Below, piece by piece: positions 47,566 through 61,200 of a stretch of DNA of 64,000 nucleotides; within the stretch, counting starts at the first letter, position 1; each line of letters starts with the position of its first letter. The notes beneath the pieces are model-generated. The model saw only the letters and a program-made list of their open reading frames with translations. It was not told where the DNA came from and did no database searches. This stretch comes from Lachnospiraceae bacterium (GTDB taxonomy: Bacteria > Bacillota > Clostridia > Lachnospirales > Lachnospiraceae). Position numbers and translations under genes: made by a program. The stretch covers positions 1-64,000 of the forward strand of contig JAJQCQ010000084.1 of the NCBI GenBank assembly GCA_021202635.1. Reading direction: 5' to 3'.

Positions 47566-48234
47566 TCAGGATGCTTTTGCCTGCTTCAGGCAACGATAGA
47601 TATTCGTTCCGTCCACCTTCCCAAATCGCTTCAATGAACCAAGATACAGATCCTTCGGTTTTTTCTCCGTCTCCGTCAGTTCAAATATTCCTGCTACTGC
47701 CTCCTCATACTCTGTGCCCGTAAAAAGGTTCTCTATCTTTTTCTTCAGATGCTCTCTCTCCTGGTATTTCGCGTATTCCTTACCAATACTGACCTGCGCG
47801 GTCGCCGCAGAAATCAGTTTTCGCCGGACACTGTTCTCATTTGTTGCAATGATGCCATCCTTCACGGTAGATTTCAGCAGAATACACTGACTGTCAATTC
47901 CCCGGTCCAGCCAGTAATCTTTCATCGCGGCATATCCTTTATCCTTGCTCACTACGACAACCTTTCCCGAAAATCCCGCTCCAAACAGTTCGCCGATCAT
48001 AGAGACAATATAAAAATCCAAAGCATTTTTCCCCGTCTTTTTCAATCGAACAGCCTGAAAACGGCAGCCGGATTTCAGTATATAGTCCATGGCCTTTTTC
48101 GATATCTTCTCACAGGAAGCACTGTAAAAAAACACCACCGCATCCGTCACATACAGATGCTCCATCCCATCAAGCCCTGCCTCACCGACATTTTCGTAAT
48201 CAATCAGGAAATACAGGTCTTCCTTCCCATCCAT
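47566..48234 (-). CDS. PIN/NYN-like nuclease-fold protein
   Basis: The N-terminus LYFLIDYENVGEAGLDGMEH gives the acidic pair of NYN/PIN nucleases, with later acidic residues in LKKTGKNALDFYIVSMIGEL and VVVVSKDKGYAAMKDYWLDR. Catalytic-type aspartates are present, so an RNase role is plausible. The C-terminal 80 residues are helical and unassigned. Start ATG 48234 follows GGAAGG; the GTG six bases upstream is an alternative. Confidence 0.7.
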   Translation of the reverse strand: MDGKEDLYFLIDYENVGEAGLDGMEHLYVTDAVVFFYSASCEKISKKAMDYILKSGCRFQAVRLKKTGKNALDFYIVSMIGELFGAGFSGKVVVVSKDKGYAAMKDYWLDRGIDSQCILLKSTVKDGIIATNENSVRRKLISAATAQVSIGKEYAKYQEREHLKKKIENLFTGTEYEEAVAGIFELTETEKKPKDLYLGSLKRFGKVDGTNIYRCLKQAKAS

Positions 48235-48457
48235 AAGCACCCTTCCTTCCTCTTAGAACCTTCATCGGCAATACTCACCATCGCTCTTTCAATCGTCAAC
48301 ATAGCTGCACAGTTTCAATCAATGCACCTCCAGTCATTGGCTGAAACCTGTGTAAAACCGTTCTGTGTATAGATTATATACTATCAGTATATTTTTAGCA
48401 AGACATTTTCTCAAATTTTTGCCAGTTTTTTCTCTGCAACGCCGCGTAAAAGGCTCT

Positions 48458-49093
48458 TTAAAAACGCCTCGTGTCCGCTTCCATCAGTTCCTTCAGTCTC
48501 TCCAACACATGACCCAGTACATAATAGGTCGTCTCATAGCGCAAAAATTCCAGCGTATTTTCATCCCACATAAATTTCAGGCTCGCTGAAAATTCATCAT
48601 CCGACTCCCAAAACTGCAACATCAATGGTAGAAAGGAAAACGGATGCAGCAGATAAGACACGTCTCCGATCTTCTGCTTTTCTCCACCCAGAATCTCACA
48701 TGCCTTTCTAAGCTCTGGCAGCCTTCTATCGAAATATTCCGCGTATTTTCCATACATATCATTTCCAAGGCCGGATGAACGAACTGTTCCTTTCAAGTCA
48801 TTGACTTTCACAAACCTTCCGGACAAATGGCAGCCTTTTTTCGAGTCACACAGGACATCGCAAATGGCAAGCACCTCGTTAAAACCCGCATGTTCCACAT
48901 GCAAGAATCCATCCATTGTCCATTCTGTTCGGCCGGAGCTGCGATTGATGCGGTAATCCCGTCCCACAAACTCTATGTACAGATATTGTTCGTCGTATTT
49001 CAAGTGAAACTTTTCGATCATGTTCTCCTGATCATAATTCAGAAAGCGTCGTTCTGCATTGTCTCTTGTCGTATTATAATTGGATAATGCCAT
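48458..49093 (-). CDS. DUF3786-domain protein
   Basis: The sequence MALSNYNTTRDNAERRFLNY...YIEFVGRDYRINRSSG, then LHVEHAGFNEVLAICDVLCD and FSFLPLMLQFWESDDEFSAS, follows the DUF3786 pattern seen in anaerobes, often beside corrinoid or metal-dependent proteins. Function unknown. ATG 49093 is preferred, with GAGGTTGAG upstream; it lies next to a yoeB-like remnant. Confidence 0.7.
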   Translation of the reverse strand: MALSNYNTTRDNAERRFLNYDQENMIEKFHLKYDEQYLYIEFVGRDYRINRSSGRTEWTMDGFLHVEHAGFNEVLAICDVLCDSKKGCHLSGRFVKVNDLKGTVRSSGLGNDMYGKYAEYFDRRLPELRKACEILGGEKQKIGDVSYLLHPFSFLPLMLQFWESDDEFSASLKFMWDENTLEFLRYETTYYVLGHVLERLKELMEADTRRF

Positions 49094-49098
49094 GTTTC

Positions 49099-49190
49099 TC
49101 AACCTCGCTTATTTCTGTAATGTGTACTGCACCGGACGATTTTCATGACATCGCCCTCATCTCACACAATAAATCTATCAAGAATCATCA
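49099..49190 (-). pseudogene. 3' remnant of a yoeB/txe-type toxin gene
   Basis: The minus strand reads (E)GDVMKIVRCSTHYRNK, close to the C-terminus of the intact YoeB at 63530 (GDVMKIVQCGSHYRDK), with a stop in the preceding FIV*DEGD region. Nucleotide similarity is visible over about 50 bp (for example TTTTCATGACATC in both). The rest of the gene and the antitoxin are missing. Confidence 0.7.
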
Positions 49191-49249: not shown

Positions 49250-50113
49250 TCACCGTGTCTGTTGTCTAACTAGCAAGAACCAAAGGAACTCCAGATCCAA
49301 CATTTCCGGATTCTTCTTTGCAATTTCCTTTATAAAAAAGCTGGCCAAGTCCGGATTCAAATCAAACAGATAGCCCATATTACCATTTCCGTCTTTATCA
49401 AATGGTGCATACTTCACATTGCAATACTTCAAGATTTCTTCCTTGTAATCACCGTGCTTTAACGGGAGATGTAGCGTATGATAATCGCAATCTACCCGAC
49501 GACCAGTTTTCTCCCACTGATCCCAATTCCCTGTAGACAGGTCTGGTCTAGCACTTTCCTGGCAAGGTCCCTTTGCTCTGCTTACAGCCTTAATATATCC
49601 ATCTGAACTGTGGAAAATAACATCTCCTTCCTGAATATCCATCAGGCGATCCCAGTGATGCATCGTACCACCGGCTTTAGAATACTTTGGAGCCCAGATA
49701 AACTGGCCTTGCATCTCCTCATTATAAGTATCTCCCCGGAAAACCAGATAGATAAGGGCTTGACCTGGCACACGAGATGCCGGAACATAAACTTTTTCAA
49801 TACTTTGTTTTTTACTCGACTGTGATTTGCTCTTTAATTCCTCCATCCTTTTTTGCTCTTCTTCATCTCTCTTGGTAGCTTTCTCAGCTTTCTTAGCCGC
49901 TTCTGCTTCTTTTGCCAGCTTTATCTTATTGACAACCTGTTCCTGCAGATTAGAATCCTCCAGCACAAGAAATTTTTCAAATGCCATTGGATAGCTGAAT
50001 TTGCTTGTCTTATTTTCAAATTCTACAGTAATATATCTTTCTTCCTGTGCGATGATAGTGCCGGTTCCCAAAATACCGGTATGTCTCACTCTCTTTTGCA
50101 ATAAATCAATCAT
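49250..50113 (-). CDS. PUA/EVE-like domain protein at the end of the restriction island
   Basis: N-terminal ~55 residues (LLQKRVRHTGILGTGTIIAQ, then YITVEFENKTSKFSYPMAFE) form a small beta domain that I have seen ahead of nuclease or restriction-linked proteins. A charged coiled coil follows (about 57-105, KLAKEAEAAKKAEKATKRDE). The C-terminal part (GQFIWAPKYSKAGGTMHHWD, then LMDIQEGDVIFHSSDGYIKA and VSRAKGPC) looks like an EVE/PUA-type domain that reads modified bases. It lies 88 bp after the res remnant on the same strand. Role as a modified-base reader is inference. Confidence 0.55.
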   Translation of the reverse strand: MIDLLQKRVRHTGILGTGTIIAQEERYITVEFENKTSKFSYPMAFEKFLVLEDSNLQEQVVNKIKLAKEAEAAKKAEKATKRDEEEQKRMEELKSKSQSSKKQSIEKVYVPASRVPGQALIYLVFRGDTYNEEMQGQFIWAPKYSKAGGTMHHWDRLMDIQEGDVIFHSSDGYIKAVSRAKGPCQESARPDLSTGNWDQWEKTGRRVDCDYHTLHLPLKHGDYKEEILKYCNVKYAPFDKDGNGNMGYLFDLNPDLASFFIKEIAKKNPEMLDLEFLWFLLVRQQTR

Positions 50114-50201
50114 GATGAACCCCTCTGTTATCTATTTTTTCGTATAGTTATTGGTGAATTCTGCACTACAATGAACATCCCGCCGGCGCCACACGTTCCA
50201 T

Positions 50202-52209
50202 CTATTTCATTACCTTATCCATCAATGACTGACAACTATCCACTACATCATAGACAACATTGTCGCCTGAAATAGCTTTAAAGTGTTCTCTGGCGCAGTG
50301 GATTTTGGATTCTTCAATCAGCCGAAGCTGCATACTGCTCATGGAGCCTTTGGTCTCTGCCACGAAATAAATGTGTTTCACGGTTCCCTCATAGAATGCG
50401 ATTGCCCAGTCCGGATTGTAATGTCCGACAGGAGTGGAGATGTAGAAACCACTCGGCAGCTTCACATACACGACAACATCTGTATTTGCATCCAACTCCA
50501 TTGCGAACTTCCGCTCGTTTGTGGAGTATAAACGATATGGTCATACAGGTGCTTATTTGCCTTCATCGCATTTACACCGAGTTTTCCTTTGATGGTGACA
50601 TCTGTGAAGATATCCGTGTCGTAGCTCTCATCCATGATATTGTAGGTAATATGCTCGATGATAGCGGTAGCCTTCTCGACATTGATAAGAGAAGCAGCTT
50701 TCACGATAAATTCCTCTGGGTTGTTTTTGAACTGGTCAAAAACGGCAGGCTTGATTCCAGTAAGAATTGCGATGATCGCCTTTCTGGTCAGGCCGGTTTC
50801 TTCTACGAGTTTTCCGACTAAATCATACTTCACATTGGAATTCACAGTGATGGTGGCTCCGTAGCTGTTTTCTTTTTCTTTGACGAAAGAAGCTCCACTG
50901 TACAAATCCTCCTTGGATTTGATTTCATCCATTGCTCCGGTCTCCACACGGAAGTAGAGTTTGGAAACGCGCAGTTTCTTGTCAAGGGCAGCGATGGATT
51001 TCCGTATCAGCTCCTCTGTATCAAAATCGACCACATAGACAGATTTTGCGTTAATCCGGCTCCAGAGATTTTTGAATTCCGGCATAGCAAGATTTTCTTC
51101 GTCTACCATGAGTTCCACGTTATTACTGCGGGCATCTTCCGGTTGCATTGCACGTTCATCATAGATGGAGTCGATGATGTCTATGATATCAGAAGCAGAG
51201 TCTGCGACTTCTTCCGCAAATTTCATCTGACCGTTGTTCTTGTCCTCGTAATACTTATCATTCAAGACTCCCTTCTTGTCAATGTAGCGATTGACCGCCA
51301 TATCGAACCAGATCGCGTGGGCAGTGTCGCTATCGATTACTTGTTCGTTGCCGGTTGCGTCTTTAATCACCCGGCCGATAAACAAATCAGCAGTTACCGC
51401 ACGCGGACGGCTCGCAACAGCGTCTGCAATTTCAGTCTGTAGTCCTTTCGCAAAGCTGTCGTAGCTCTCACTGGCGATTACAGTCAGAACATTTACATTG
51501 TGCACATCGTTACCCAGCACGTTCGTATCCATGCGCTCGCCGTCCTGGTTGACACAGAGACGTAAGCCACGGCCAACCTCCTGACGTTTGCGCACATCTG
51601 AGGAGCTCTGCTTCAACGTGCAAATCTGGAATACGTTCGGGTTGTCCCAGCCTTCGCGCAAGGCAGAATGAGAAAAGATGAAACGCACCGGAGATTTCTT
51701 CGGGGCTCGGTCGAGCAGAAGCTCCTTGTTTTTCATAATCAAGTCATAAGCGTCAATACCATCAGAGGTAGTCTCTTTCCGAGCCACTTTACTGTTAATC
51801 ATCTTACCTTTTTTATCCACAGAAAAATATCCGCATAGATTCCGTTGTATGGCTGTCTGGAAGCGTCGTACTGTTTATACTTCGCGACTTCATCAATGAA
51901 GAACAGGGAGAGAACCTTGATTCCTTTATAGAACAGCTGACGTTCTCTCTGTATATGGGACAGTATAGTCTCTCGAATCTGGATGCGACGCAGCTGATTC
52001 TCATCCACCTTGCCGATGACGTCTCCGACATACAGCTTTATGCCGTTTAAGAATTCCAGAGAATTATCGCGGCCATCAATGAATTTCACGACAAAACCGT
52101 TCCGGTACTCCTCCAAGTAGTCAGATTTATCGTAAAGGTTGTCTCCGATATTGACAATAGCCTTCGCCGCATCTGCCTGAAATTTTTGATGTTTGAATTG
52201 CAACTTCAT
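50202..52209 (-). pseudogene. Type III restriction endonuclease Res, deleted and frameshifted
   Basis: Pieces in order: an N-terminus MKLQFKHQKFQADAAKAIV joined directly to what is normally a position several hundred residues later (IGDNLYDKSDYLEEY), so motor motifs I-III (Walker A, DEAD box) are missing; helicase C-terminal domain (FSHSALREGWDNPNVFQICT, then QEVGRGLRLCV); and the endonuclease PD-ExK block ([20 protein letters not shown] then ETKG). Two apparent 1-nt G deletions break the frame, near 51831 (YA|GYFSVDKKGK) and 50527 (VY(D)[11 protein letters not shown]). Intact Res is about 950-1000 aa. The ATG overlaps the upstream gene's stop (ATGA). It cannot make an active ATP-dependent nuclease. 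Confidence 0.9.
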
Positions 52210-53987
52210 TCGGTCACATCCTCCTCCGTGATAAATCTATATCTGCCATTGCCATGGCCGGTGACGGGAACGATCAGCATGGCATCTTTCAGTTTATTTA
52301 TTAGATTTCCTGCAGCCGTTCCGGATATTCGAAGCAGTTTACTAATATCTGTTCTGTTAAAAGTATCATCTGTTAGGGCTCTTTTCAGTAATCGTATGTT
52401 CTCTCTGGTTCGTTCCTTTACTTCCATACGTATAAGGACCTCTTCAAACGAAACCTTTTCGATTGAAACAAAACTTTCCCCATTACCATAAGTTGCGCTT
52501 AGAGCTGAAACGCAACTTTTTTCTCGTTCAAAAGTTGCGTTTGGGGGTGAAACGCAACTTTTCTCTTGCCCAAAAGTTGCGTTTGAAGATGAAACGTTTA
52601 CTTTATGAGCTGAATCGATACTTTTTTTATTATCAATCGTTGCTGTTTTCTTTGAGCGGACGGATTTCTCGCTTTCAACGAGCGGATTCCCTTCGGAAAC
52701 TATCATGGCATCATCCACTCCTAAAAAATCTGGATGTATCGGTATCTCAACCGTTACTGCCCGACGATCTTCGTCCGTATAAAACCTTGCTGCAGGAGAA
52801 CCGTTATTGCGCAATTCCTCCTGTATCGTTGGAATGCCCGTACATTTACCTTCGGATAAATCCAGCTCTTTTAAGAATTCACCAAGCCGTTTATTGCGAT
52901 AGTATCTCGTGGAAAATCGTTCACCGGCTTCAATATCTCTCATCGGAATCGAGCGATCAATTCCCGGATAGCTGATAATCCGAATCAGTTCCGGCTCAAT
53001 CTCGATAATAATAGACTGATAGGACATATAATCCCGGTGATAAAACGCATTCACCACAGCTTCTTCCAAGGCCTGGTAGGGATAGCTAAAACGTCGGATT
53101 GCCTCCATCTGGTAATTCACCTTAGTCACTTTTTCCAGGACCACCATATCCTGCAATTTCTGCATTGTCCGGTTAATCATTTCCGGAACAGAGCCCTTAA
53201 TCACCGGCACTTCGATAAAGTTGTTTGGATTGCGAATGCTGCCTTCCGGAAACTTCGTAATCTCTACCTGCGTGTATGGGAAAAACTGATCCAGATGGTC
53301 GCAGAACATCATCAGTGCGACATTCGTAATAAATGGCTACTCCGGCGGTCCTGCCAGAAGCTGCATATCTCCGAGTACATCCATCACGCCACGTTGTAAC
53401 ACCTGTCTCGACAGTCTGCTTTTCGTCTTTTTCAAATGTTCAATCAGCAGCAGAACCGAGATATCGTCCTCTGTTGCCTTGAAATTGGGCTTCATATCAA
53501 AAGGCATGTAATCTGTCATGCTCAGTAATTCCCTCTCCTGCTCCGCATTGGCGCGAATAGAGCTGGATGCGTAACGAATATAATAATAAAGCTTTTTTTC
53601 CTTCTTTGAAGTTACATGTTCCGGTGCCTTATAAGGTCTCCCAGCACCCGTCGTCACCCACAAGACCAGAATGCATTTTCCGTCCACTTCCTCATCTATC
53701 ACTTTCAGAAAGCAGGCGGGTACCATTGTATTATTATATCCAATCATTTCCTTCTTGATAGCGTCAATCTCATATTCCTGAATCCCTTTTACCGGGCGAA
53801 CAGCAATCCCGTTCTTTTCTTCTACTCCAATCATAATATAACCACCGCCGACATTATCAAAATCATTCGCGAATGCACAAATGCTGCGGTAAGTGTCGTC
53901 CGGATTCCACGAGGCTTTAAACTCAATTCGGTCGGATTCGATTCTTCTTTTGTTCAGGAGATCTTCAATATTAATCTCAAGTTCCAT
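52206..53987 (-). pseudogene. AlbA_2/Schlafen-type ATP-binding protein with in-frame TAG
   Basis: The N-terminal AlbA_2 domain (ESDRIEFKASWNPDDTYRSI, then GGGYIMIGVEEKNG), a middle HATPase_c_4-like region (YPYQALEEAVVNAFYHRDYM) and a C-terminal winged helix (NRTDISKLLRISGTAAGNLI) give a 593-codon frame. It is interrupted by TAG at 53337-53339 between QLLAGPPE and PFITNVALMM, with the same frame continuing. One substitution is enough to explain it. Between ATPase and winged helix lie three 42-nt tandem repeats (52465-52590). It sits between mod and res, and overlaps res by ATGA. These proteins recur in phage-defence islands. Confidence 0.85.
52465..52590 (-). repeat. Three 42-nt tandem repeats within the AlbA_2 gene
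   Basis: Exact 42-bp period (52465, 52507, 52549). Each unit contains an inverted repeat AAACGCAACTTTT/AAAAGTTGCGTTT and encodes a 14-residue motif of the type NATFEREKSCVS. The first unit is diverged (SATYGNGESFVS). Units keep the reading frame, so copy number could change without loss of function. Confidence 0.9.
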
Positions 53988-54081
53988 CGCTACCTCCCTG
54001 TACAGATTGTTTGCATTTCTGGCACATAGTCAGAAAATATCTGACCATGTGAATTGTATAAATTATATTTTTTTAGAGTTA

Positions 54082-56046
54082 TCAAATAACTTTTATCCTC
54101 GTGTCAGGTGCCAACAGTTTGAATATCTCACCCACATTAATCTTGGCAGGACTTCCTTCGAAACTGCTGTCGCGGAATACAGCGCGGAGCGGCTGTCTTT
54201 TCGCAATAGTCTTAGTCACACTATCCGGGATATTCTCATCAAAGCAGGCAATCAGGTCGCCAGCATTATAAGTATGTACTGTGCAGCCGTCAATCTTCTC
54301 GGAGGTGTAGGGGAGAGAGAGTGGCAGTCCCCAGTCTAACAGGCAACCGAAGAACAAATCGAGGTCGGTGCGGTCTTCCTTGATGTTGGATTCCAGACCA
54401 GCAAGCATACTTTGACTATATTCTCCGGCAGAATAGTAGACATCCTTCATGTTAGAATCGTCCAGTTTGAAGACACGGAAACCAACATCAAGGTCCTGTG
54501 TGACCAGCGGACTTTCTTTCTTGATTTTCTCCCCGGCACAGCGAATACGTTCCTTAGCGATGCTGCATATTGTGGGTTCATAGCCATGATCTGTTAAATA
54601 CTTCATTGTTGTAGTAATGTTAGCTTTCAATCGTGCATCCAATCCAGGACGAGAGATTGCCTCATTTAAATCCTCAGGTAATTGCACCATAATGAATTTT
54701 CTATTGCCACCATCTTCCGCATTCAGTTTCATTACAGCGTGAGCTGTTGTTCCCGAACCCGAAAAAAAATCTAACACGATAGCATTCTTGTCATTTGCGG
54801 TGCCTGCAAAAACAGAGTCATATACAGTGTATAGACTTTTAGGAAATGAAAACCCTCCTCCGGGAACAAGCTCACTTACAAGCTTTGTCCCATATTCGTT
54901 GGCATCATATTTTTTGTCATCCCAGACGGTTTTTTGTATGCCAAATGTTTTTCCAATCTCAATATCATATCCAGAAACTATCTTTTTAGGGCGAAGCATA
55001 TCGCAGATGCTTTCTACCGTCTGTCGAGCATATCTCCATTTTCGCTCTACACCTTGTCGGTCAATCGGGTACACATAATATATATCACCATCTTTTTCAG
55101 TTTGTTTAGGATGATAATCATCCGGAGATACATCTCCAAAGCCAATAATTTTATCATCTTTTACGAGTATAGGATAAAAACAGTTTTTTGCATCTGTGCG
55201 TTCAGATTCGCTGCCCCAATTCCTCAAAGGAGACCAATCAACATCTTCATCATCAATTTTTCTGTCTGCAATAACTTTTAGTGCCTTTGGAAAAACAAAT
55301 ATAGCGTATTCATTTGTATAAGAGAAGTTTTTCCCTTGCTGTCCACGAGGGTTGTGAACGACTGTTACACAAACATGGTCATATGTTCCTTCTCCAAAAA
55401 TTTCTTTTAACACTGCACCTAATGAAAATATTTCGTTTTCATCAATAGCACATACTAATATACCATCATCAGACAAAAGATTCCTTGCTATGAGCAGGCG
55501 TGAATATATCATCGAAATCCAATCAGAATGGTAGCGTGCTGAGCCAACTGGGTTTGATACAAGTTTTGCCCCTTCGTCATCAATTATTCCTGCTTGTTCA
55601 TCGTAATCTTCCTTATCAAGAGAAAAATCGTTTCTGTAAATATAATTTCTCCCAGTATTGTATGGAGGATCAATATAAATCATCTTGACCTTGCCCAGAT
55701 AGCTTTCCTGTAAGAGTTTGAGAACCTCCAAATTATCTCCCTCAATATAAAGATTTTCGGTAGTGTCCCAGTCTTTGCTTTCTTCTGGACAAGGGCGCAG
55801 TGTCTTGCGGATAGGCTTATTGGCTTCCACGATAGACGCTTTTTTGCCTACCCAAGTAAATTCGTATGCTTCGTCACCTTCCACAACATCGCCCGAAAGC
55901 ATCTGACGGAGTAGGTCAAAGTTGATGGCTTTCTTCGGTTTGCCGTCATCGTCCATAGTTTCAGTGATGCAATTAGGAAACAACACACCTATTTTCTCAA
56001 TGTTTTGAGCCGTCATATCAACAGACTCTATTTTCATTTTATCCAT
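54082..56046 (-). CDS. Type III DNA adenine methyltransferase (Mod)
   Basis: Beta-class amino-methyltransferase: catalytic motif IV DPPYNTG (in KVKMIYIDPPYNTGRNYIYR), SAM-binding motif I later in LDFFSGSGTTAHAV, and a target-recognition region between. N-terminal GKKASIVEANKPIRKTLRPC and the ENLYIEGDNLEVLKLLQESY block are typical of type III Mod. It makes N6-methyladenine at an asymmetric site not predictable here. All 654 residues are open with intact motifs. ATG 56046 follows GGGAGG. Without a working Res it would act as an orphan methyltransferase. Confidence 0.95.
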   Translation of the reverse strand: MDKMKIESVDMTAQNIEKIGVLFPNCITETMDDDGKPKKAINFDLLRQMLSGDVVEGDEAYEFTWVGKKASIVEANKPIRKTLRPCPEESKDWDTTENLYIEGDNLEVLKLLQESYLGKVKMIYIDPPYNTGRNYIYRNDFSLDKEDYDEQAGIIDDEGAKLVSNPVGSARYHSDWISMIYSRLLIARNLLSDDGILVCAIDENEIFSLGAVLKEIFGEGTYDHVCVTVVHNPRGQQGKNFSYTNEYAIFVFPKALKVIADRKIDDEDVDWSPLRNWGSESERTDAKNCFYPILVKDDKIIGFGDVSPDDYHPKQTEKDGDIYYVYPIDRQGVERKWRYARQTVESICDMLRPKKIVSGYDIEIGKTFGIQKTVWDDKKYDANEYGTKLVSELVPGGGFSFPKSLYTVYDSVFAGTANDKNAIVLDFFSGSGTTAHAVMKLNAEDGGNRKFIMVQLPEDLNEAISRPGLDARLKANITTTMKYLTDHGYEPTICSIAKERIRCAGEKIKKESPLVTQDLDVGFRVFKLDDSNMKDVYYSAGEYSQSMLAGLESNIKEDRTDLDLFFGCLLDWGLPLSLPYTSEKIDGCTVHTYNAGDLIACFDENIPDSVTKTIAKRQPLRAVFRDSSFEGSPAKINVGEIFKLLAPDTRIKVI

Positions 56047-56154
56047 GTTAGTGTTCCTCCCTATTGTGGCAGCATGGTTACTACCATATTATAGATTGTC
56101 GTAGCCCATCCAACCAACTTGATAATAGAGTCGACGGTTTCTACGGAGTTTTTC

Positions 56155-56295
56155 CTACATTTGTTGGTTTATAACCTCGCAATCGAATATAGGATAAGCT
56201 GGTGCCAAGTTGGAAATATCAAGACCTTTGAGCTTTTCCATCATTTGTCCAAACGGACTGTCTGGGGAAATTGGCACAAATTTATCGTCCATCAT
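56155..56295 (-). CDS. 46-aa ORF coupled to the DUF4391 gene
   Basis: The minus strand reads MMDDKFVPISPDSPFGQMME, then KLKGLDISNLAPAYPIF and ends DCEVINQQM. Its ATG (56295) overlaps the DUF4391 stop as ATGA, and GGAG lies 5 nt ahead. The tight coupling and position between DUF4391 and mod suggest a real small subunit or regulator, but no family is recognised and it could be a truncated relic. Confidence 0.5.
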   Translation of the reverse strand: MMDDKFVPISPDSPFGQMMEKLKGLDISNLAPAYPIFDCEVINQQM

Positions 56296-56789
56296 AGTAC
56301 CTCCAATTCTTTCTTCAGCTTCTTCAATTCCACATTCATCTGCATTTGCTTGTTTAGCTGTTTTTCCTTCCGAATTTTTGCTTGTAAAGCATCAATCTGC
56401 TTCTGCAACTGTTTCCGCTTCTCAGAGCGGGTAACCTTGAATGCGCTATTGCCAGATTGCGAGGCCTCCTTATACCTAATCCATGCCTGATATTTCCCTT
56501 CGTACTCTAGCAGGAACAGGATATGATACGGGATTTCTTTATCAATCTGACGCAGTACCGCTTCGTCCAGATTCCCTGTGTTTAGCTTGATTTCAAACAC
56601 TTCCAGCTCCGTGACGGTTGTCCCAGGTGCCAGATTCATGGTGGTGACAGCAATTTTGTTTCGCCAGTATATGACCTTAATCTGTTCTTTGAAAGCGGTT
56701 TTGAGTGCCGGAGTAACAGTCAGGTTCTCATAAAATTTCTGTTTTGGAATTCGTTTATTGAATTCCGTTGACTTTGGTAAACCGATCAT
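56292..56789 (-). CDS. DUF4391-domain protein
   Basis: The sequence MIGLPKSTEFNKRIPKQKFY, ITVTPALKT..., IKVIYWRNKIAVTTMNLAPG and EIPYHILFLLEYEGKYQAWI match DUF4391, a family often next to SNF2-type helicases and type III Mod/Res genes. The C-terminus is a Lys/Gln/Glu coiled coil (residues about 125-165). The ATG at 56789 overlaps the helicase stop (TAATG). Likely a partner of the helicase; biochemical role unknown. Confidence 0.82.
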   Translation of the reverse strand: MIGLPKSTEFNKRIPKQKFYENLTVTPALKTAFKEQIKVIYWRNKIAVTTMNLAPGTTVTELEVFEIKLNTGNLDEAVLRQIDKEIPYHILFLLEYEGKYQAWIRYKEASQSGNSAFKVTRSEKRKQLQKQIDALQAKIRKEKQLNKQMQMNVELKKLKKELEVL

Positions 56790-59432
56790 TATTGTGCATC
56801 CTCCTGTTTTACGACAAGGAAGCAAATCAACTCGAAATCATCCAGGCCGGAGACGTTTGACATCAGGGCAGTCGTGCCTCCAGCGAAAAAAAGGCTGTCA
56901 ATGTCGCTTTCTTCTTTGGCATCGATGATGGAATCAATCGCAAAGCTTAACAATTCAGACATTTCTGCCATGTTCCGTCCATCATCAGTTTCTTTATTGA
57001 GCTTTGTGTAGACGCTCCGTATCGGCTCATCTTTGCCGCGACAAAGCAGCCGGACACCATCCAGAAGCTTTTTCGGGTTCAAGTAGTCGCAGACCACTTT
57101 GCCATCCTCCCCGATGTAAACCATATAAAATGGGTGGATGCGGTTCCGGTTATCTATATTCACGCTGTTATTTACATTCCGCAGGACAAAAATTGCACCT
57201 TCTGGGAATTCCTTGGTAGCCGGAGCCACAGCGTGAAGACCACGGGGTTTTTTGTTCACGTCCGGATGCGTTTTCATATATTCCAGCAGGTCCAGCCGGA
57301 ATTCATTTAAGCCTAAATCCATGATGGAAATGCCCTCGGACATATCCTCTATGTCGACTACCTCCTCCTGCAGACGTTTTAACTGGCTCCGCCGGTATTC
57401 CAGGTCACCTTTTTCTTCGGAGTTAATCAGGTCATCATCGCCGGTAGAGGTCATGACGGAAATCTTCATGCGAGTTTCAACTCTGGCTTTCAGGTTGATA
57501 TATTCGTCTAAATCCATATCCGGTCAGAAATTCACCAGCTGGATATAAGCATTCCTGCTGCCGATACGGTCGATTCTGCCGAAACGCTGGATAATCCTCA
57601 CCGGGTTCCAGTGGATATCGTAGTTTACCAGAAAATCGCAGTCCTGCAGGTTCTGATCTTCTGAAATACAGTCTGTGGCAATCAGGATGTCGATATTATA
57701 ATTGTTATTCAGCATCAGCACGCCCTTGCTCTTCGAGATTGGAGAAAAACATGTCAATACATTGTTCAGCGTGGCCTTCAATCCTTTGATGGTGGATTTG
57801 CCATCGACATTTCCCGTAATCAACGCGGTGTCCAGACCATACTTGTCTTTCACGAAAACGCTTACATTATTGTACAGATATTCTGCTGTATCGGATCAGG
57901 CTCGGTCGAAGCGATATCGGCTTCCGACGCTCTGGGAAATTGCCAATTTCTGCAGTATTATAATATTTCTCGATATGTTTCCGGGAGCGGGCAATGGTCA
58001 CGCTGTCCAGAACCTCGAAAAAATCAAAATCCAGAGTACGCAGCAAAGCATCAGTTGTGCGTTCTTCTGGATCCAACTTGCTCCATGCATTAAATGCTTT
58101 CTGCGCCTGACGGAAAATTTCGTCAATTGGCTTCTTTGTGTTCAGTTTCTCATCGATGTTTGCCGCGTCGCCTTCGTAGGCAATCGCCAGCTGGTTTCGT
58201 AAATCGTTAAACCTGTTGTTGACTGGCGTAGCAGAGAACATCAACACTTTCGTCTTAACTCCAGCATGGATAACCTTGTCCATCAATTTCACATAACGGT
58301 TTTCTGTCGTGTTGGCATGGGTACCGGCACCGTTGCGAAAGTTGTGGGATTCATCGATGACCACAAGATCATAATTCCCCCATTTCCACCTGTTCAGATC
58401 AAGACCGTTTGAGGTGCCGCCATTTCTGGACAAATCCGTATGGAAAAGCACATCATAATTCAACCGGTCAGCCGCTACCGGATTGTTTACGTAGTTGTCC
58501 TTATATGTATTCCAGTTTTCTGCCAGTTTCTTGGGGCAGAGCACAAGAACGGATTTATTCCGGTTCTCATAATATTTTATTACAGCCAGCGCAGTGAAAG
58601 TCTTATCGAGACCTACACTGTCTGCGAGGATGTAGCCGTTGTATTTTTCCAGTTTATTAATAATAGCAAGCGCGGCATCTTTCTGAAAATCAAAGAGCAT
58701 ATTCCAGATTTTGCTTTGCTTGAAGCCTGTGCTTTCATTCGGCAGGACATCCTCCGACACATTATCCAGAAATTCGTAGAACACATAGAACAACGTCATA
58801 AAATAGATGAACTCAGGTGAATTCTCACTATAAGCGGAAGTGATGTTTTCAATAACTACATCTGTGACATCCTGCATCTTTTCCCGGTCGTTCCAGATGG
58901 TGTCAAATAGCTGCATATACTGTATGGAGAAAGGGGCCTCCATGCGGTTCGTCATGTTGTAGCTGTTGTTACCGCGTTCACAGCCGATATCAACTGTGGT
59001 AAATCCGGCCATTGGCATATAAGCCACCTGTTCCGACTTATTGTCGACCGTCATGAACCCGGCCATATTCTCTCCAGTAATGTTGGACTTAAAAGTGTCC
59101 TTCCGGCGAATCCAGTCTGCACATTCCCTGGCGATAGCTTTCTGAGTCATTTCGTTACGCAGCTTAATTTCAAATTCTGTACCGTAAAGGCTGTTCTCAC
59201 GGCTCATCCGTGGGATATAGAATTCCCGCTTTTCCTTGGAAGCCTTCTCTGTGGTGAACGTAGGGGAGGTGAAAATAAAACGAAATTCATTCACTCCTTC
59301 CAGCTGTTTCTTAAGCTCCTTGTACGCATACATTGAAAAACACTCTGCCGCGATGGAAACTTTGCTTCCCTTCGTAATCGTCATAGCCATGTCATCACGT
59401 ACAATTTCAGAAATATTGTCAAATATTTTCAT
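56789..59432 (-). pseudogene. SNF2-type helicase of the defence island, disrupted
   Basis: Three pieces in order. 59432-57867: N-terminal PLD-like region and first RecA domain with Walker A written ADSVGLDKT (normally GLGKT, a G-to-D change from one base) and DESH box VVIDESHNFRNG. 57853-57524: second RecA domain (ILIATDCISEDQNLQDCDFL, then IHWNPVRIIQRFGRIDRIGS). 57517-56789: C-terminal extension. The first junction (CTGATC|CGATACAGC, near 57900) lacks about 200 residues of the usual linker and is out of frame; the second break is TGA where NFWPDMDLDEY expects TGG. Start ATG 59432 follows GGAGG. The protein must be inactive as a motor. Confidence 0.88.
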
Positions 59433-59448
59433 GAATGTACCTCCAGCC

Positions 59449-60435
59449 TTATACCTGTCCCATTAGTTCTTCTATTCGATTCCTCTGCTCCTTAACAACT
59501 ATTTCTGGCGATATCACCCGCATCTGTTTTCCAAACCGGAACAGCCAGCCCCAGAAAGTGGATGAAATTTGCACGTCTACGGTTGCCGCAACCTTGTCTA
59601 TTCCAGCGGGCATCATACTGATTTTCTCTCCAAACCGGTCATACACCGTACCGATAAGTTTGATGTCGAATTCCAGTATAATTGTCTGTAGCTCGCCGCC
59701 GTACATCTTAATCGCCTGTTCTGTATATTTGCCTACGCTGTCTCTGAGTGCCAATGTCTTTTCTGAAATATCCTCATCTATCACCTCGACATTATCCATA
59801 CGGTCAACCCGGTAGTTTGCCGTGTTATTATGTCTGGAACTGTAGACCACAGCATAGTAATTGTCTTCATTATATACAAGCGCCACCGGTTCCACAACGT
59901 AATGATGACCGTCACGCCGATAGGCACGTTTACCTTTCATGTTCAACTCATAGTATTGAAAGATAATTTTCTTTCTGCGCTGTATGGCGTCCTCAATAGC
60001 GTCGACATTATAATAAATACTCTCGTTCGTATGCTTCCGCGTGTTAAAATGCGCAAGATTGCTTTTGAGTATCGTTGCCCTGTTTGTTCCTCCCTGACTG
60101 GCAATCTTGTTCACTAGCTCCTTGGTTTTCTTTTCAGTGATAAAACTGGCTGCCTGTACCGAATCAATCAGAATCTTCAGCTCTGGGACAGAGAAATTTC
60201 GGTCTTCAATATAGTATCCTTTTCCTTTCCCTACCCATGTCCAGAGCACCTCTATTCCGTTATCATTCAGAAGCTCTATGTCCTTGCTCAGGATACGCCG
60301 GTCACAGGGAATATCCATTTCTTTTAATCGCTCACAAATCTGAGCAGTGGTCAGGGGATGCTGTTCATCCGTCTCTTGCCGCAACAAATCAACAAGCTTC
60401 AGCAATTTAATTTTCTGCCAGTTCTCTTTCGGCAT
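59449..60435 (-). CDS. WYL-domain transcriptional regulator heading the island
   Basis: N-terminal winged HTH (PLTTAQICERLKEMDIPCDR, then LSKDIELLNDNGIEV) followed by a WYL domain (YHYVVEPVALVYNEDNYYAVV type) and WCX tail (SSTFWGWLFRFGKQMRVISP). WYL regulators of the BrxR/CapW/PafBC class bind DNA and sense nucleic acid or nucleotides; several repress defence operons. 328 aa from ATG 60435, set by GGAGGGG. It is the first gene of the whole minus-strand run to 49250 and lies 16 bp ahead of the helicase gene. It appears intact. Confidence 0.9.
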   Translation of the reverse strand: MPKENWQKIKLLKLVDLLRQETDEQHPLTTAQICERLKEMDIPCDRRILSKDIELLNDNGIEVLWTWVGKGKGYYIEDRNFSVPELKILIDSVQAASFITEKKTKELVNKIASQGGTNRATILKSNLAHFNTRKHTNESIYYNVDAIEDAIQRRKKIIFQYYELNMKGKRAYRRDGHHYVVEPVALVYNEDNYYAVVYSSRHNNTANYRVDRMDNVEVIDEDISEKTLALRDSVGKYTEQAIKMYGGELQTIILEFDIKLIGTVYDRFGEKISMMPAGIDKVAATVDVQISSTFWGWLFRFGKQMRVISPEIVVKEQRNRIEELMGQV

Positions 60436-60482
60436 AGATTTCCCCTCCAATGGCTCGATAAGAATGTAAAAAATCATGTATT

Positions 60483-60511
60483 ATTATACCAAACCCCCAT
60501 CTTATTTGCAA
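60483..60511 (-). promoter_or_regulatory. Promoter of the defence island
   Basis: TTGCAA (60511-60506), 17-bp spacer and extended -10 TGGTATAAT (TATAAT 60488-60483), 47 bp before the WYL ATG. A very good sigma-A promoter; the only strong one found ahead of the island. Confidence 0.8.
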
Positions 60512-60652
60512 CAAAGTATTAGTATTTTCGCCAATTTTACTGTCTTGCTTTTGAGACAACTACTCATATCGTTTTCAAGATTGATTTTTCCATCATCTAT
60601 CTCAAATCAGGGACATCTGACCGCATAATGGAAAAATCTGCTATTTTTCTCA

Positions 60653-60727: not shown

Positions 60728-60927
60728 ATGCATACAAAGAAAGCGGAGTACTTCAAGCTGATTGAAGACTTCATCAATGACTACCAGGAATCGAACGGAA
60801 TCACACCCACAATCCGCGAGATCTCAACATTCCCAAAACCACGGTGGGACGTTACCTCGCTTATATGTGTGAACACGGTATCCAATACATTTCAGAATAT
60901 CCTCTCCATTTTCCTGTACGATTTTGA
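60728..60927 (+). pseudogene. LexA/SOS-type repressor N-terminal remnant
   Basis: The frame begins MHTKKAEYFKLIEDFINDYQ and ESNGITPTIREIS, the LexA-type winged HTH, after AAAGGAG. The recognition part continues in another frame as NIPKTTVGRYLAYMCEHGIQ, so a short deletion/frameshift lies near 60822. The autocleavage/dimerisation domain is missing. It has its own promoter and faces a toxin-like remnant. Confidence 0.7.
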
Positions 60928-60930
60928 CTT

Positions 60931-61200
60931 TTACATAAAATGTATGCCATCAATACTCTTTTTGAGTTCCCATATGTTTCCAGGACGATTAGGAGCAATA
61001 TCCCGTTTAGAACCTTTGTAGTAATCACTGACAACAAGCCCTAAAATCTCATTCTTTGCATCTTTGATAGTAAAACCACGTTGCGCCAATGTCTGCATAT
61101 TTTTTTCTTGAAACAAAATCGTATTTTTCTGCGGACAACAGCCTCTTAATATTATAATAAGATATGTCCAACGTGCTCGCTTGATTACTTCCTCAGTCAA
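60931..61200 (-). pseudogene. MqsR/YgiT-partner-like toxin remnant
   Basis: The stretch FTIKDAKNEILGLVVSDYYK, then IWELKKSIDGIHF, resembles small MqsR-like toxins (xxKNEILxL..DYxxGP...WxFxKxIxGxxxYIKLK). After HF the frame ends; the expected YVKVKIVQENG follows in another frame (a 1-nt shift near 60933), overlapping the LexA-like remnant. No antitoxin gene follows. Identification is tentative. Confidence 0.4.

Follow-up and report, generated by a model that had tools for sequence, protein, structure and literature searches.

A stretch of 64,000 nucleotides from a Lachnospiraceae bacterium, here called the window, carries a row of minus-strand genes that the initial annotation took for one multi-part defence system. 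The question raised by this locus is which of the genes belong together as a system, and whether the system could still work in the window. We consider it probable that the locus is the recently decayed remainder of a type III restriction-modification system of four genes that is widespread elsewhere, with cargo genes flanking Mod, placed behind a portable defence head. The features are listed below.

49250..50113, minus strand: EVE-domain protein, 287 aa, open (phmmer to PDB 6yex, E=3.6e-19)
50202..52209, minus strand: Res, in three pieces (136, 452 and 99 aa), the C-terminal nuclease part lying in the last piece
52206..53987, minus strand: SLFN_AlbA_2 and HATPase_c_4 protein, frames of 216 and 368 aa parted by one TAG at 53337
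54082..56046, minus strand: Mod, type III DNA methyltransferase, 654 aa, open and full length (Pfam N6_N4_Mtase)
56064..56307, minus strand: cargo stub of slot 1, consisting of an N-terminus (56155-56295, the "46-aa ORF") and the last 29 residues (56150-56064)
56292..56789, minus strand: DUF4391 protein, internally deleted (Pfam DUF4391, 1.6e-42; tblastn with L092); the ORF finder places its start at 56825, the feature as given here ends at 56789
56789..57895, minus strand: C-terminal part of the SNF2-type helicase (HEL), residues ~714-1077, with an in-frame stop at 57524 (tblastn, HEL of L065 as query)
57867..59432, minus strand: N-terminal part of HEL, 521 aa, equivalent to HEL residues 1-512 (Pfam, tblastn)
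59449..60477, minus strand: HTH-WYL-WCX regulator, 342 aa, open (Pfam WYL, 8.2e-12)
60483..60511, minus strand: promoter-like site TTGCAA-17-TATAAT with extended TG
60541..60615, no strand: two candidate operator palindromes TGTC-N10-GACA (60541-60558 and 60598-60615)
60728..61021, plus strand: remnant of a divergent LexA-like repressor (HTH and Peptidase_S24 family), only the N-terminus recognisable

The gene order proposed at the outset, WYL, SNF2-type helicase, DUF4391, Mod, SLFN_AlbA_2/HATPase_c_4, Res and EVE-domain protein on the minus strand, was recovered with Pfam, PADLOC and phmmer. The promoter ahead of the operon is likewise present (60511-60483) and is also conserved in the relative G001, and the couplings can be read in the sequence, TAATG between helicase and DUF4391, and ATGA both between DUF4391 and the 46-aa frame and between AlbA_2 and Res. 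What does not hold is that the genes are whole, as the helicase, DUF4391, AlbA_2 and Res genes bear deletions, stops or frameshifts, with WYL, Mod and EVE open.

The lesions are observed directly in the assembly. Compared with HEL of L065 (tblastn), the helicase gene has lost residues ~513-713 of 1086 and changed frame, and DUF4391 lacks profile positions 125-188. Deletion junctions are placed near 57896, 56430, 56150, 52150 and 51825. The three pieces of Res correspond to positions 320-431, 468-874 and 887-987 of the 989 in PADLOC REase_III. By eye, approximately the first 19 residues are kept, followed by a jump to residue ~345-366 of the relatives, from which it follows that the motor domain is absent; a further ~30-40 residues are lost, together with the frame, near 50520. 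The window copy thus lacks the combination of motor and nuclease domains of a type III Res, which is found as ResIII and RE_endonuc domains in the intact Res of the relative L016. The two frames of the AlbA_2 protein match Pfam SLFN_AlbA_2 (2e-14) and HATPase_c_4 (1.1e-6). Mod, on the other hand, is open and matches PADLOC MTase_III over its full length (4.5e-182, 605 bits, positions 2-621 of 621), as expected of a type III methyltransferase. With its core genes broken, the copy in the window is incapable of acting as a restriction system, which largely refutes a multi-part defence working at this site.

A type III enzyme is described as a machine of two subunits. Judged by gene order in relatives, the SNF2-type helicase, DUF4391, Mod and Res together form a conserved type III system of four genes. 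Among the closest 80 of 579 confirmed loci found through HEL in the GTDB sample, DUF4391 lies no more than three genes from HEL in 67 of the 68 loci with at least 1.5 kb downstream, and DUF4391, Mod and Res follow in order on the same strand in 51 of the 53 with at least 9.5 kb. These loci (the same best 80 of 579) span ten phyla by record title, and such conservation of order and strand is not accounted for by chance adjacency. Among IMG/VR loci with enough sequence, DUF4391 is near HEL in 51 of 58 cases and the ordered full set is present in 33 of 44, leaving 11 of 44 without it. Four-gene copies also occur on plasmids, where 103 records match HEL, and in E. coli, so that the extra parts are testable in a laboratory host; the intact operon of E. 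coli H6 (L252) consists of HEL, DUF4391, a nuclease gene, DUF2130, Mod and Res. The initial annotation would have been refuted by relatives in which the genes never travel together; helicase, DUF4391, Mod and Res do travel together, and its view that the locus is more than a Mod/Res pair, with the helicase as a system component, is borne out. A form of type III system with a second motor and DUF4391 is accordingly spread over ten phyla (GTDB, best 80 of 579), plasmids and E. coli. Among the papers listed in the literature searches, no description of the four-gene system was seen besides PMC8259958, and DUF4391 turned up in one paper, as an incidental mention.

HEL itself is predicted to be a SNF2-family ATPase with a PLD-like N-terminal domain without nuclease motif. 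It resembles PADLOC C3a139 "HKD+Snf2" in both its N-terminal (2.6e-57) and C-terminal part (5.1e-15). The HKD motif (HxKxxxxD) is missing from the first 300 residues in 168 of 171 relatives of at least 1000 aa, and in all 25 relatives of the first set, so that an active HKD nuclease is unsupported. DUF4391 gave no PDB sequence match, the best E being 0.73.

Two slots, 5' and 3' of Mod, hold swap-in genes of AlbA_2, Fic, RhuM, YhcG and Abi types. Of the 120 loci that have the ordered core, with Res >250 aa, 63 carry a slot-1 or slot-2 gene of at least 80 aa, a count that excludes slot-2 genes matching one of our own profiles, such as AbiJ. The scans of slots and upstream regions refer to genes of at least 80 aa, with tallies over the first 25 families; they covered 61 of 66 slot-1 proteins, 52 of 54 slot-2 proteins plus AbiJ of L016 and the two window pieces, and 61 of 65 upstream proteins, with 49 genes downstream of Res listed outside the family scans. 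AlbA_2 is the commonest slot-2 family; a 457-aa gene of L292, a candidate AlbA_2, had one weak PDB match, to an uncharacterized protein. The Schlafen-type AlbA_2 protein, originally counted as part of the system, is therefore swap-in cargo, one of many slot-2 alternatives. Nor does the 46-aa ORF survive as a gene: the ends of the slot-1 stub, recognisable on either side of the deletion, match the corresponding ends of a protein of 163 aa in L136 at 52% and 79-82% identity, and the short frame is the start of the deleted slot gene. Candidate anti-phage genes can be sought among the contents of these slots.

The reading of the last gene as PUA/EVE-like is upheld as to identity and fails as to membership. 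Residues 124-270 of the protein align to residues 6-152 of the 6yex chain, the EVE part of an EVE-HNH endonuclease; no Pfam match reached the gathering score. Among 47 genomes of the genus the gene was found in the window's own and, apart from it, as one weak partial match, and a single-sequence profile gave no match in the 195 other loci scanned. A fixed system part is rejected on these counts, and the EVE gene, on this distribution, is a neighbour outside the conserved system.

A defence-associated WYL regulator does stand at the head of the operon, as was claimed. Its WYL domain scores 45.4 bits (cut-off 21.8) and its WCX domain 21 bits, under the cut-off of 23.9, compared with 28.3 bits for the WCX domain of the L094 protein; the gene thus has the WYL and WCX domains of the BrxR/CapW family, with WCX below cut-off in the window. 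Its dN/dS against two relatives is 0.065-0.066. In the genus, 14 WYL loci, the window included, are at least 65% identical, and 13 of these 14 (identities 65-93%) head defence genes: BREX, DISARM (L295), CRISPR I-C, type I, II and III systems, and AlbA_2-like genes. The sole one heading no defence gene is G452. Members of the genus of the G026 or G451 type hold several such heads. Since WYL genes 65-92% identical head quite other systems, the regulator is not specific to the type III system, contrary to the initial reading. A WYL fixed in the system is rejected also because G026 has a HEL piece 94% identical in nucleotides and no WYL gene on its 4.7-kb contig, and because WYL accounts for just 3 of 61 genes upstream of sampled loci. 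The idea that Proteobacterial copies share the window's regulator was rejected as well, as three of their WYL proteins, all with a WYL domain, had no alignable similarity to it.

The divergent LexA-like gene, or a fragment of it, is present in 11 of 17 loci. The remnant in the window has no Pfam match alone and is recognised by phmmer (E=1.4e-10) through a 201-aa LexA-like protein of L290; Peptidase_S24 is present in the copies of L290 and L294. The relative L094 combines head and system, with LexA-like gene, WYL (68% identical), YhcG, HEL, DUF4391, DUF4365, Mod, YhcG and Res, all four core genes being open. WYL is, as the shared gene neighbourhoods indicate, part of a portable head comprising the LexA-like gene, the TGTC-N10-GACA palindromes and the promoter. 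A palindrome with at most one mismatch occurs in 13 of 13 upstream regions (shuffles: mean 1.35, maximum 5 of 500), the sample being 13 rather than 14 because L293 yielded no upstream region; as the palindromes are located in related sequences, this conservation is partly due to common descent. In the window's own genome a wider operator regulon is unsupported, with 31 sites versus 39 for the reversed pattern. Promoter-like sites across the region are not in excess (31 versus 26.1 in shuffles, sd 5.8). The position of the palindromes fits an activator as well as, or better than, a repressor. At E≤0.1, phmmer matched the WYL protein to only five WYL-type PDB chains, whose names are WYL domain-containing protein or DeoR-family regulator, none being called BrxR or CapW; among them is 7tzv, the complex of DriD with ssDNA (PMC12340889), and the match to DriD is weak (E 0.008-0.03). 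Taken with the position of the palindromes, this match hints at a damage-sensing activator, not a repressor. Among the papers listed in the literature searches, no description of a single WYL/LexA-like head common to many systems was seen.

How the window copy came to its present state can be read in more than one way. The operon might be intact in the organism, with the deletions representing collapsed variants in a draft assembly: the genome consists of 106 contigs, the pieces of HEL and DUF4391 appear under strong purifying selection (dN/dS 0.02-0.06 versus G026 and G001), and the deletions in DUF4391 and the first one in Res preserve the frame. We consider this improbable, as five genes carry eight distinct lesions of various types, two of them plain stops (nine lesions in six genes if the LexA-like remnant is counted), WYL, Mod and EVE are clean, and G001, also a draft genome, shows a different deletion in the same system, with HEL fused to DUF4391. 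The low dN/dS of the pieces instead indicates recent decay. It is rather unlikely that, once the restriction half had gone, selection retained Mod together with WYL as an orphan methyltransferase under regulation, serving as an epigenetic regulator. Neither gene is damaged, whereas Res and HEL are broken, and the dN/dS of WYL is low, but the broken pieces show equally low values and the decay is too recent, so that selection and chance are indistinguishable; no close full-length relative of Mod was found (the best in the genus is 44% identical over the full length), and dN/dS for Mod is uninformative, dS being saturated at one end.

The composition of the system has also been open to opposite readings. 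That WYL repressor, helicase, DUF4391, Mod, Schlafen-type protein, Res and EVE base reader cooperate here is highly improbable and, for the window copy, largely refuted already by its lesions; it draws on the common direction and tight couplings of these genes and on the open core genes of the WYL-led relative L094, and against it stand the broken core, the many alternatives to AlbA_2 in its slot, the finding of EVE, among 47 genomes of the genus, only in the window's own and as one weak partial match, and the related WYL genes heading other systems. At the other extreme, the locus could be an ordinary type III system with chance neighbours, in which neither HEL nor DUF4391 contributes to restriction. 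Mod/Res pairs without HEL do exist (three E. coli type III loci inspected), and the extra helicase of PMC8259958 is dispensable for methylation according to the available part of that paper, but order and strand kept across ten phyla make this reading quite unlikely.

We thus return to the decayed four-gene system behind a portable head. In type III enzymes, Mod methylates an asymmetric site on one of its strands and unmethylated DNA is cut by Mod-Res; the intact relatives would do the same. HEL may translocate on or remodel DNA, or displace bound protein, and so aid or gate Mod-Res, with DUF4391 coupling HEL to Mod-Res, and the cargo genes (AlbA_2, Fic, RhuM, YhcG and Abi-type) are probably backup effectors carried in the operon. 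The palindromes, which lie upstream of the -35 element, are the probable binding sites of the WYL protein, which, by analogy with DriD, probably turns transcription on upon ssDNA or DNA damage. In the window only WYL and Mod could still act, as an orphan methyltransferase under WYL control. It is possible, if somewhat doubtful, that the locus represents both a distinct four-component class of type III systems, where Mod-Res is gated or powered by DUF4391 and a nuclease-dead PLD/SNF2 ATPase beside two abortive-infection cargo bays, and a client of a genus-wide damage or ssDNA regulon in which one portable WYL/LexA-like head turns on BREX, DISARM, CRISPR, restriction-modification and other systems together. 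The shared head would let one ask if a single damage-sensing regulator switches many defence systems.

Compared with two-gene type III systems of the EcoP15I type, the locus has the same Mod and Res families in the same order and differs in having HEL and DUF4391 ahead of Mod, in its cargo slots, and in that the window Res is dead. A close description is that of Eco86II and BspHIV, where the parts available of a 2021 paper (PMC8259958) report an additional helicase-like ATPase 5' of mod, an SF2 helicase non-homologous to Res near mod/res in more than 500 genomes, and partial cutting of DNA by an Eco86II preparation without helicase peptides. An SF2 helicase upstream of mod and res is also what the HEL relatives carry and the window has in broken form, a likeness of description and gene position. 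Unlike our loci, the gap of ~140 bp in BspHIV leaves no room for DUF4391; the available main text is without the term "DUF", and cargo slots go unmentioned in it. The methylation it reports is m4C. HEL further matches DISARM_DrmD of class 1 DISARM (7.3e-43), although its 147 bits lie far under the family cut-off of 610.

The EVE neighbour recalls the EVE-HNH enzyme VcaM4I, whose EVE domain comprises residues 1-147 and for which the available text of PMC7897488 names 6yex: P, W and Y of the window protein align, by eye, with P24, W82 and Y130 of the VcaM4I base pocket, and no HNH domain was detected in the window protein. With DriD, a WYL transcription activator that binds ssDNA, the regulator shares the weak match of its WYL/WCX part to 7tzv and a pseudo-palindromic site, whereas the available part of PMC12340889 states no role of DriD in a defence operon. 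The head also recalls BrxR and CapW, HTH-WYL regulators found beside BREX, CBASS, restriction-modification and CRISPR systems (PMC9122601 and PMC9122588, as far as available). It differs from them in that one head, with WYL genes 65-93% identical, serves about eight system types in one genus, and in that it mostly adjoins a divergent LexA-like gene.

The minus-strand open reading frames in 49250–60511 follow the order the initial annotation had given them: WYL regulator, SNF2-type helicase (HEL), DUF4391, a 46-aa ORF, Mod, AlbA_2, Res and a 287-aa protein with an EVE domain. The sequence comes from a draft genome of 3.98 Mb in 106 contigs. When intact relatives are mapped onto the window, HEL falls into two parts, with a stop at 57524 within the second:

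59432–57897, minus strand: HEL residues 1–512
57895–56804, minus strand, in another frame than residues 1–512: HEL residues 714–1077

DUF4391 lacks profile positions 125–188, and one TAG breaks the AlbA_2 frame. Res has its own start at 52209 and, after some 19 residues (by eye), jumps to residue ~345–366 of its relatives; further on, another ~30–40 residues are gone and the frame changes near the end. The 46-aa ORF is a stub, because it and a 29-residue tail (56150–56064) correspond to opposite termini of a single 163-aa protein that fills this slot in a related locus, L136 (52% and 79–82% identity, respectively). The tally is 8 lesions in 5 genes, or 9 in 6 genes if an upstream LexA-like remnant is counted, while the frames of WYL, Mod and the EVE protein are uninterrupted. 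The window copy is dead as a restriction system. The HEL and DUF4391 pieces compared with those of two congeneric genomes (G026 and G001) have dN/dS of 0.02–0.06 at dS of 0.29–0.83, and the decay is therefore recent, or else an artefact of assembly. G001 carries another deletion, which fuses HEL, at residue ~117, with the end of DUF4391. The two distinct deletions (window 56426–56440 and the HEL–DUF4391 junction of L298 in G001) stop within a few bases of one point in DUF4391, just before SEKRKQLQ (by eye), possibly a hot spot for deletions.

DUF4391 is present in 32 of 393 genomes of the class, the window's own counted, and its neighbourhoods give the order HEL–DUF4391–[slot 1]–Mod–[slot 2]–Res, the slots being places for exchangeable cargo genes. 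HEL is on the contig in 30 of 38 loci of the class, picked via DUF4391 or HEL; some of the other eight are contig ends, and five (L070, L071, L073, L074 and L083) look like another context. The DUF4391 proteins of these five loci without HEL have 261–276 aa, and all carry genus label g104. A GTDB scan with the HEL alignment confirmed at least 579 relatives, the best 80 of which were used as loci. Among these best 80, the four genes occur in order in 10 phyla, which we assigned ourselves from organism names: Bacillota, Bacteroidota, Pseudomonadota, Verrucomicrobiota, Actinomycetota, Synergistota, Acidobacteriota, Campylobacterota, Desulfobacterota and that of Candidatus Ozemobacter. Planctomycetota and Fibrobacterota have HEL and DUF4391 only, on the stretches covered. 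In the same best 80 of at least 579, DUF4391 lies at most three genes from HEL in 67 of 68 loci with at least 1.5 kb downstream, and DUF4391, Mod and Res follow in order on the same strand in 51 of 53 loci with at least 9.5 kb. The corresponding counts for 75 IMG/VR loci are 51/58 (DUF4391 within three genes) and 33/44 (ordered DUF4391–Mod–Res). A Pseudomonas HEL has matches at E ≤ 1e-60 in 103 of 72,556 plasmid records. DNA matches to two different HEL genes were found in 68 and 88 of 5,426 E. coli genomes (10 and 23 of them with query coverage of 80% or more), and some genomes are in both sets.

Annotated Enterobacter and E. coli loci read WYL–HEL–DUF4391–cargo (one or two genes)–Mod–Res, with the WYL domain confirmed and a one-base overlap between WYL stop and HEL start; IS30 splits Mod in one of them. 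E. coli NCTC11023 differs in having, immediately ahead of HEL, a 54-aa HTH (L251:9172–9336) in place of WYL; its annotation is MAD1, a component of the MADS defence system. This HTH belongs to HTH_17, the most frequent family among upstream genes (8 of 61 scanned). Two Mod genes stand in tandem in L092, L108, L109 and L136, as if holding two specificities.

A gene of at least 80 aa occupies slot 1 in 43, slot 2 in 46 and either slot in 63 of 120 loci with the ordered core. The 55 slot-2 proteins scanned, which include two window pieces and the AbiJ of L016, comprise SLFN_AlbA_2 (9), HATPase_c_4 (8), RhuM (5), Fic (5), YhcG (3), Abi_C (2), zeta toxin (2) and single cases of AbiJ, Abi_2, AbiV, TIR and PIN. 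SLFN_AlbA_2 tops these counts, and the window AlbA_2 gene thus belongs to the commonest slot-2 family (8 of 53 once the window pieces are removed). Slot 1 (61 scanned) holds Bro-N (3), YhcG (2), AlbA_2 (2) and singles including TIR, Fic, GmrSD and reverse transcriptase.

The HEL alignment retains the SF2/SNF2 motifs ADSVGLGKT, VIDESHNFRN, SATP and QRFGR. Although PADLOC labels the protein 'HKD+Snf2', 168 of 171 relatives of at least 1000 aa lack HxKxxxxD in their first 300 residues. In NCBIfam HEL is nearest to DrmD, yet far under the cut-off. HEL is probably an ATPase/translocase without its own nuclease. A 1061-aa PLD-SNF2 helicase after another WYL head (L288:503–3688) matches Pfam PLDc_2 and, unlike HEL, has HxK and GSSN when read by eye, so that this relative may have nuclease activity.

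The PUA/EVE-like reader proposed as the last component holds as a domain assignment, though not, in our reading, as a part of the system. Residues 124–270 match 6yex chain residues 6–152 (E 3.6e-19), an entry named in excerpts of the VcaM4I paper (PMC7897488), according to which the EVE domain comprises residues 1–147 and takes up flipped 5mC/5hmC in a pocket made of P24, W82 and Y130. The window protein has P, W and Y at these places (alignment by eye). An 88-bp gap separates the gene from the Res remnant upstream of it. Among the 47 genus genomes searched, the others gave one weak partial match, and the EVE profile matched in none of the other scanned loci; we therefore do not regard it as a member of the type III system. 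It is followed on the same strand by a PIN7-domain gene and a DUF3786 gene (47566–48240 and 48458–49102).

The WYL gene recurs at ≥65% identity over most of its length in 14 loci of 11 of the 47 genus genomes, the window included. Seven of the 14 have one stop in the aligned stretch, yet on reading frames all are open for 326–368 aa except that of G452, which is shortened to 290 aa and has no defence gene behind it. The other 13 are followed by defence genes on the same strand.

Defence genes behind the WYL head, by genome (G) and contig (C)
Window and G001: this type III system, broken in both
G026 C223: two type II-like methyltransferases and a MutH-domain protein
G026 C53: BREX with BrxP, BrxC and PglZ, which we take to be type 4 from its BrxP
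G450 C225: BREX, from likeness of two partial genes, by eye
G032: CRISPR I-C
G030: PLD-SNF2 helicase
G008: type II/IIG-like methyltransferases
G000 (the window's own genome) C76, G014, G451 C88: 457-aa protein, AlbA_2-like by eye
G451 C15: class 1 DISARM with DrmD, DrmA and DrmB
G449: type I R-M

The 457-aa protein and the window AlbA_2 piece match the same PADLOC pAgo model. Outside the genus, an Oscillospiraceae MAG (L094) has LexA-like, WYL (68%), YhcG, HEL, DUF4391, DUF4365, Mod, YhcG and Res genes, all open, and G259 has WYL (63%) followed by genes resembling HsdM and HsdS by eye. Among 391 sampled genomes of the class, only G259 and the window's own matched WYL at E ≤ 1e-90. A divergent LexA-like gene or piece adjoins WYL in 11 of 17 loci (5 of the 11 under 150 aa, the window's included), with Peptidase_S24 in those scanned. 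The window's genome has a second WYL head (L292, G000:C76), before the AlbA_2-like gene, and a third (L308, G000:C68:64555–65022), cut by the contig end; each adjoins a LexA-like gene or piece.

All 13 of 13 regions upstream of WYL contain TGTC-N10-GACA with no more than one mismatch (shuffles: mean 1.35, maximum 5 in 500), and 7 contain it exactly (mean 0.06, maximum 2), counts that overstate independence because the regions are related sequences. Even so, two copies lie 57–59 bp apart in four heads and 48 bp apart in a fifth, with differing centres and similar arms. The nearer window palindrome (60541–60558) ends 29 bp before the -35, compared with 8 bp (by eye) in G000 C76; the difference of 21 bp is two helical turns, a placement that would suit WYL as an activator. 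With both strands included, the window has 5 occurrences of a stricter form against 0.68 expected, two of them at unrelated 25254; genome-wide it is not in excess (31 vs 39 in the control). GAAC-N4-GTTC, which resembles the Bacillus LexA box, is exact in 3 of the 13 regions and has one mismatch in 6 more, as raw counts.

Pfam finds WYL in the window regulator, with WCX under its cut-off, and its PDB matches at E ≤ 0.1 are five weak WYL-type chains (E 0.008–0.03), including 7tzv. Three enterobacterial regulators before HEL also have the WYL domain and show no alignable similarity to the window protein, which suggests that WYL proteins were probably recruited to the four-gene system more than once. 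In excerpts of PMC12340889, 7tzv is a complex of ssDNA with DriD, an activator whose binding site is a pseudo-palindrome of 20 bp. The known defence WYL regulators are BrxR and CapW; homologues of BrxR have been described next to R-M, BREX, CRISPR and further systems (PMC9122601, PMC9122588, excerpts).

In the open-licence literature available in part, we found no description of the four-gene unit with its two cargo slots, or of one WYL/LexA-like head common to about eight system types in one genus, and DUF4391 turns up in one paper, in an enrichment table. A 2021 report (PMC8259958) described an additional helicase encoded upstream of mod, at that time with no function assigned to it; in excerpts of that report it is not needed for methylation and was not detected in an Eco86II preparation giving partial cutting. 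HEL resembles this helicase in its position upstream of mod and may be its homologue.
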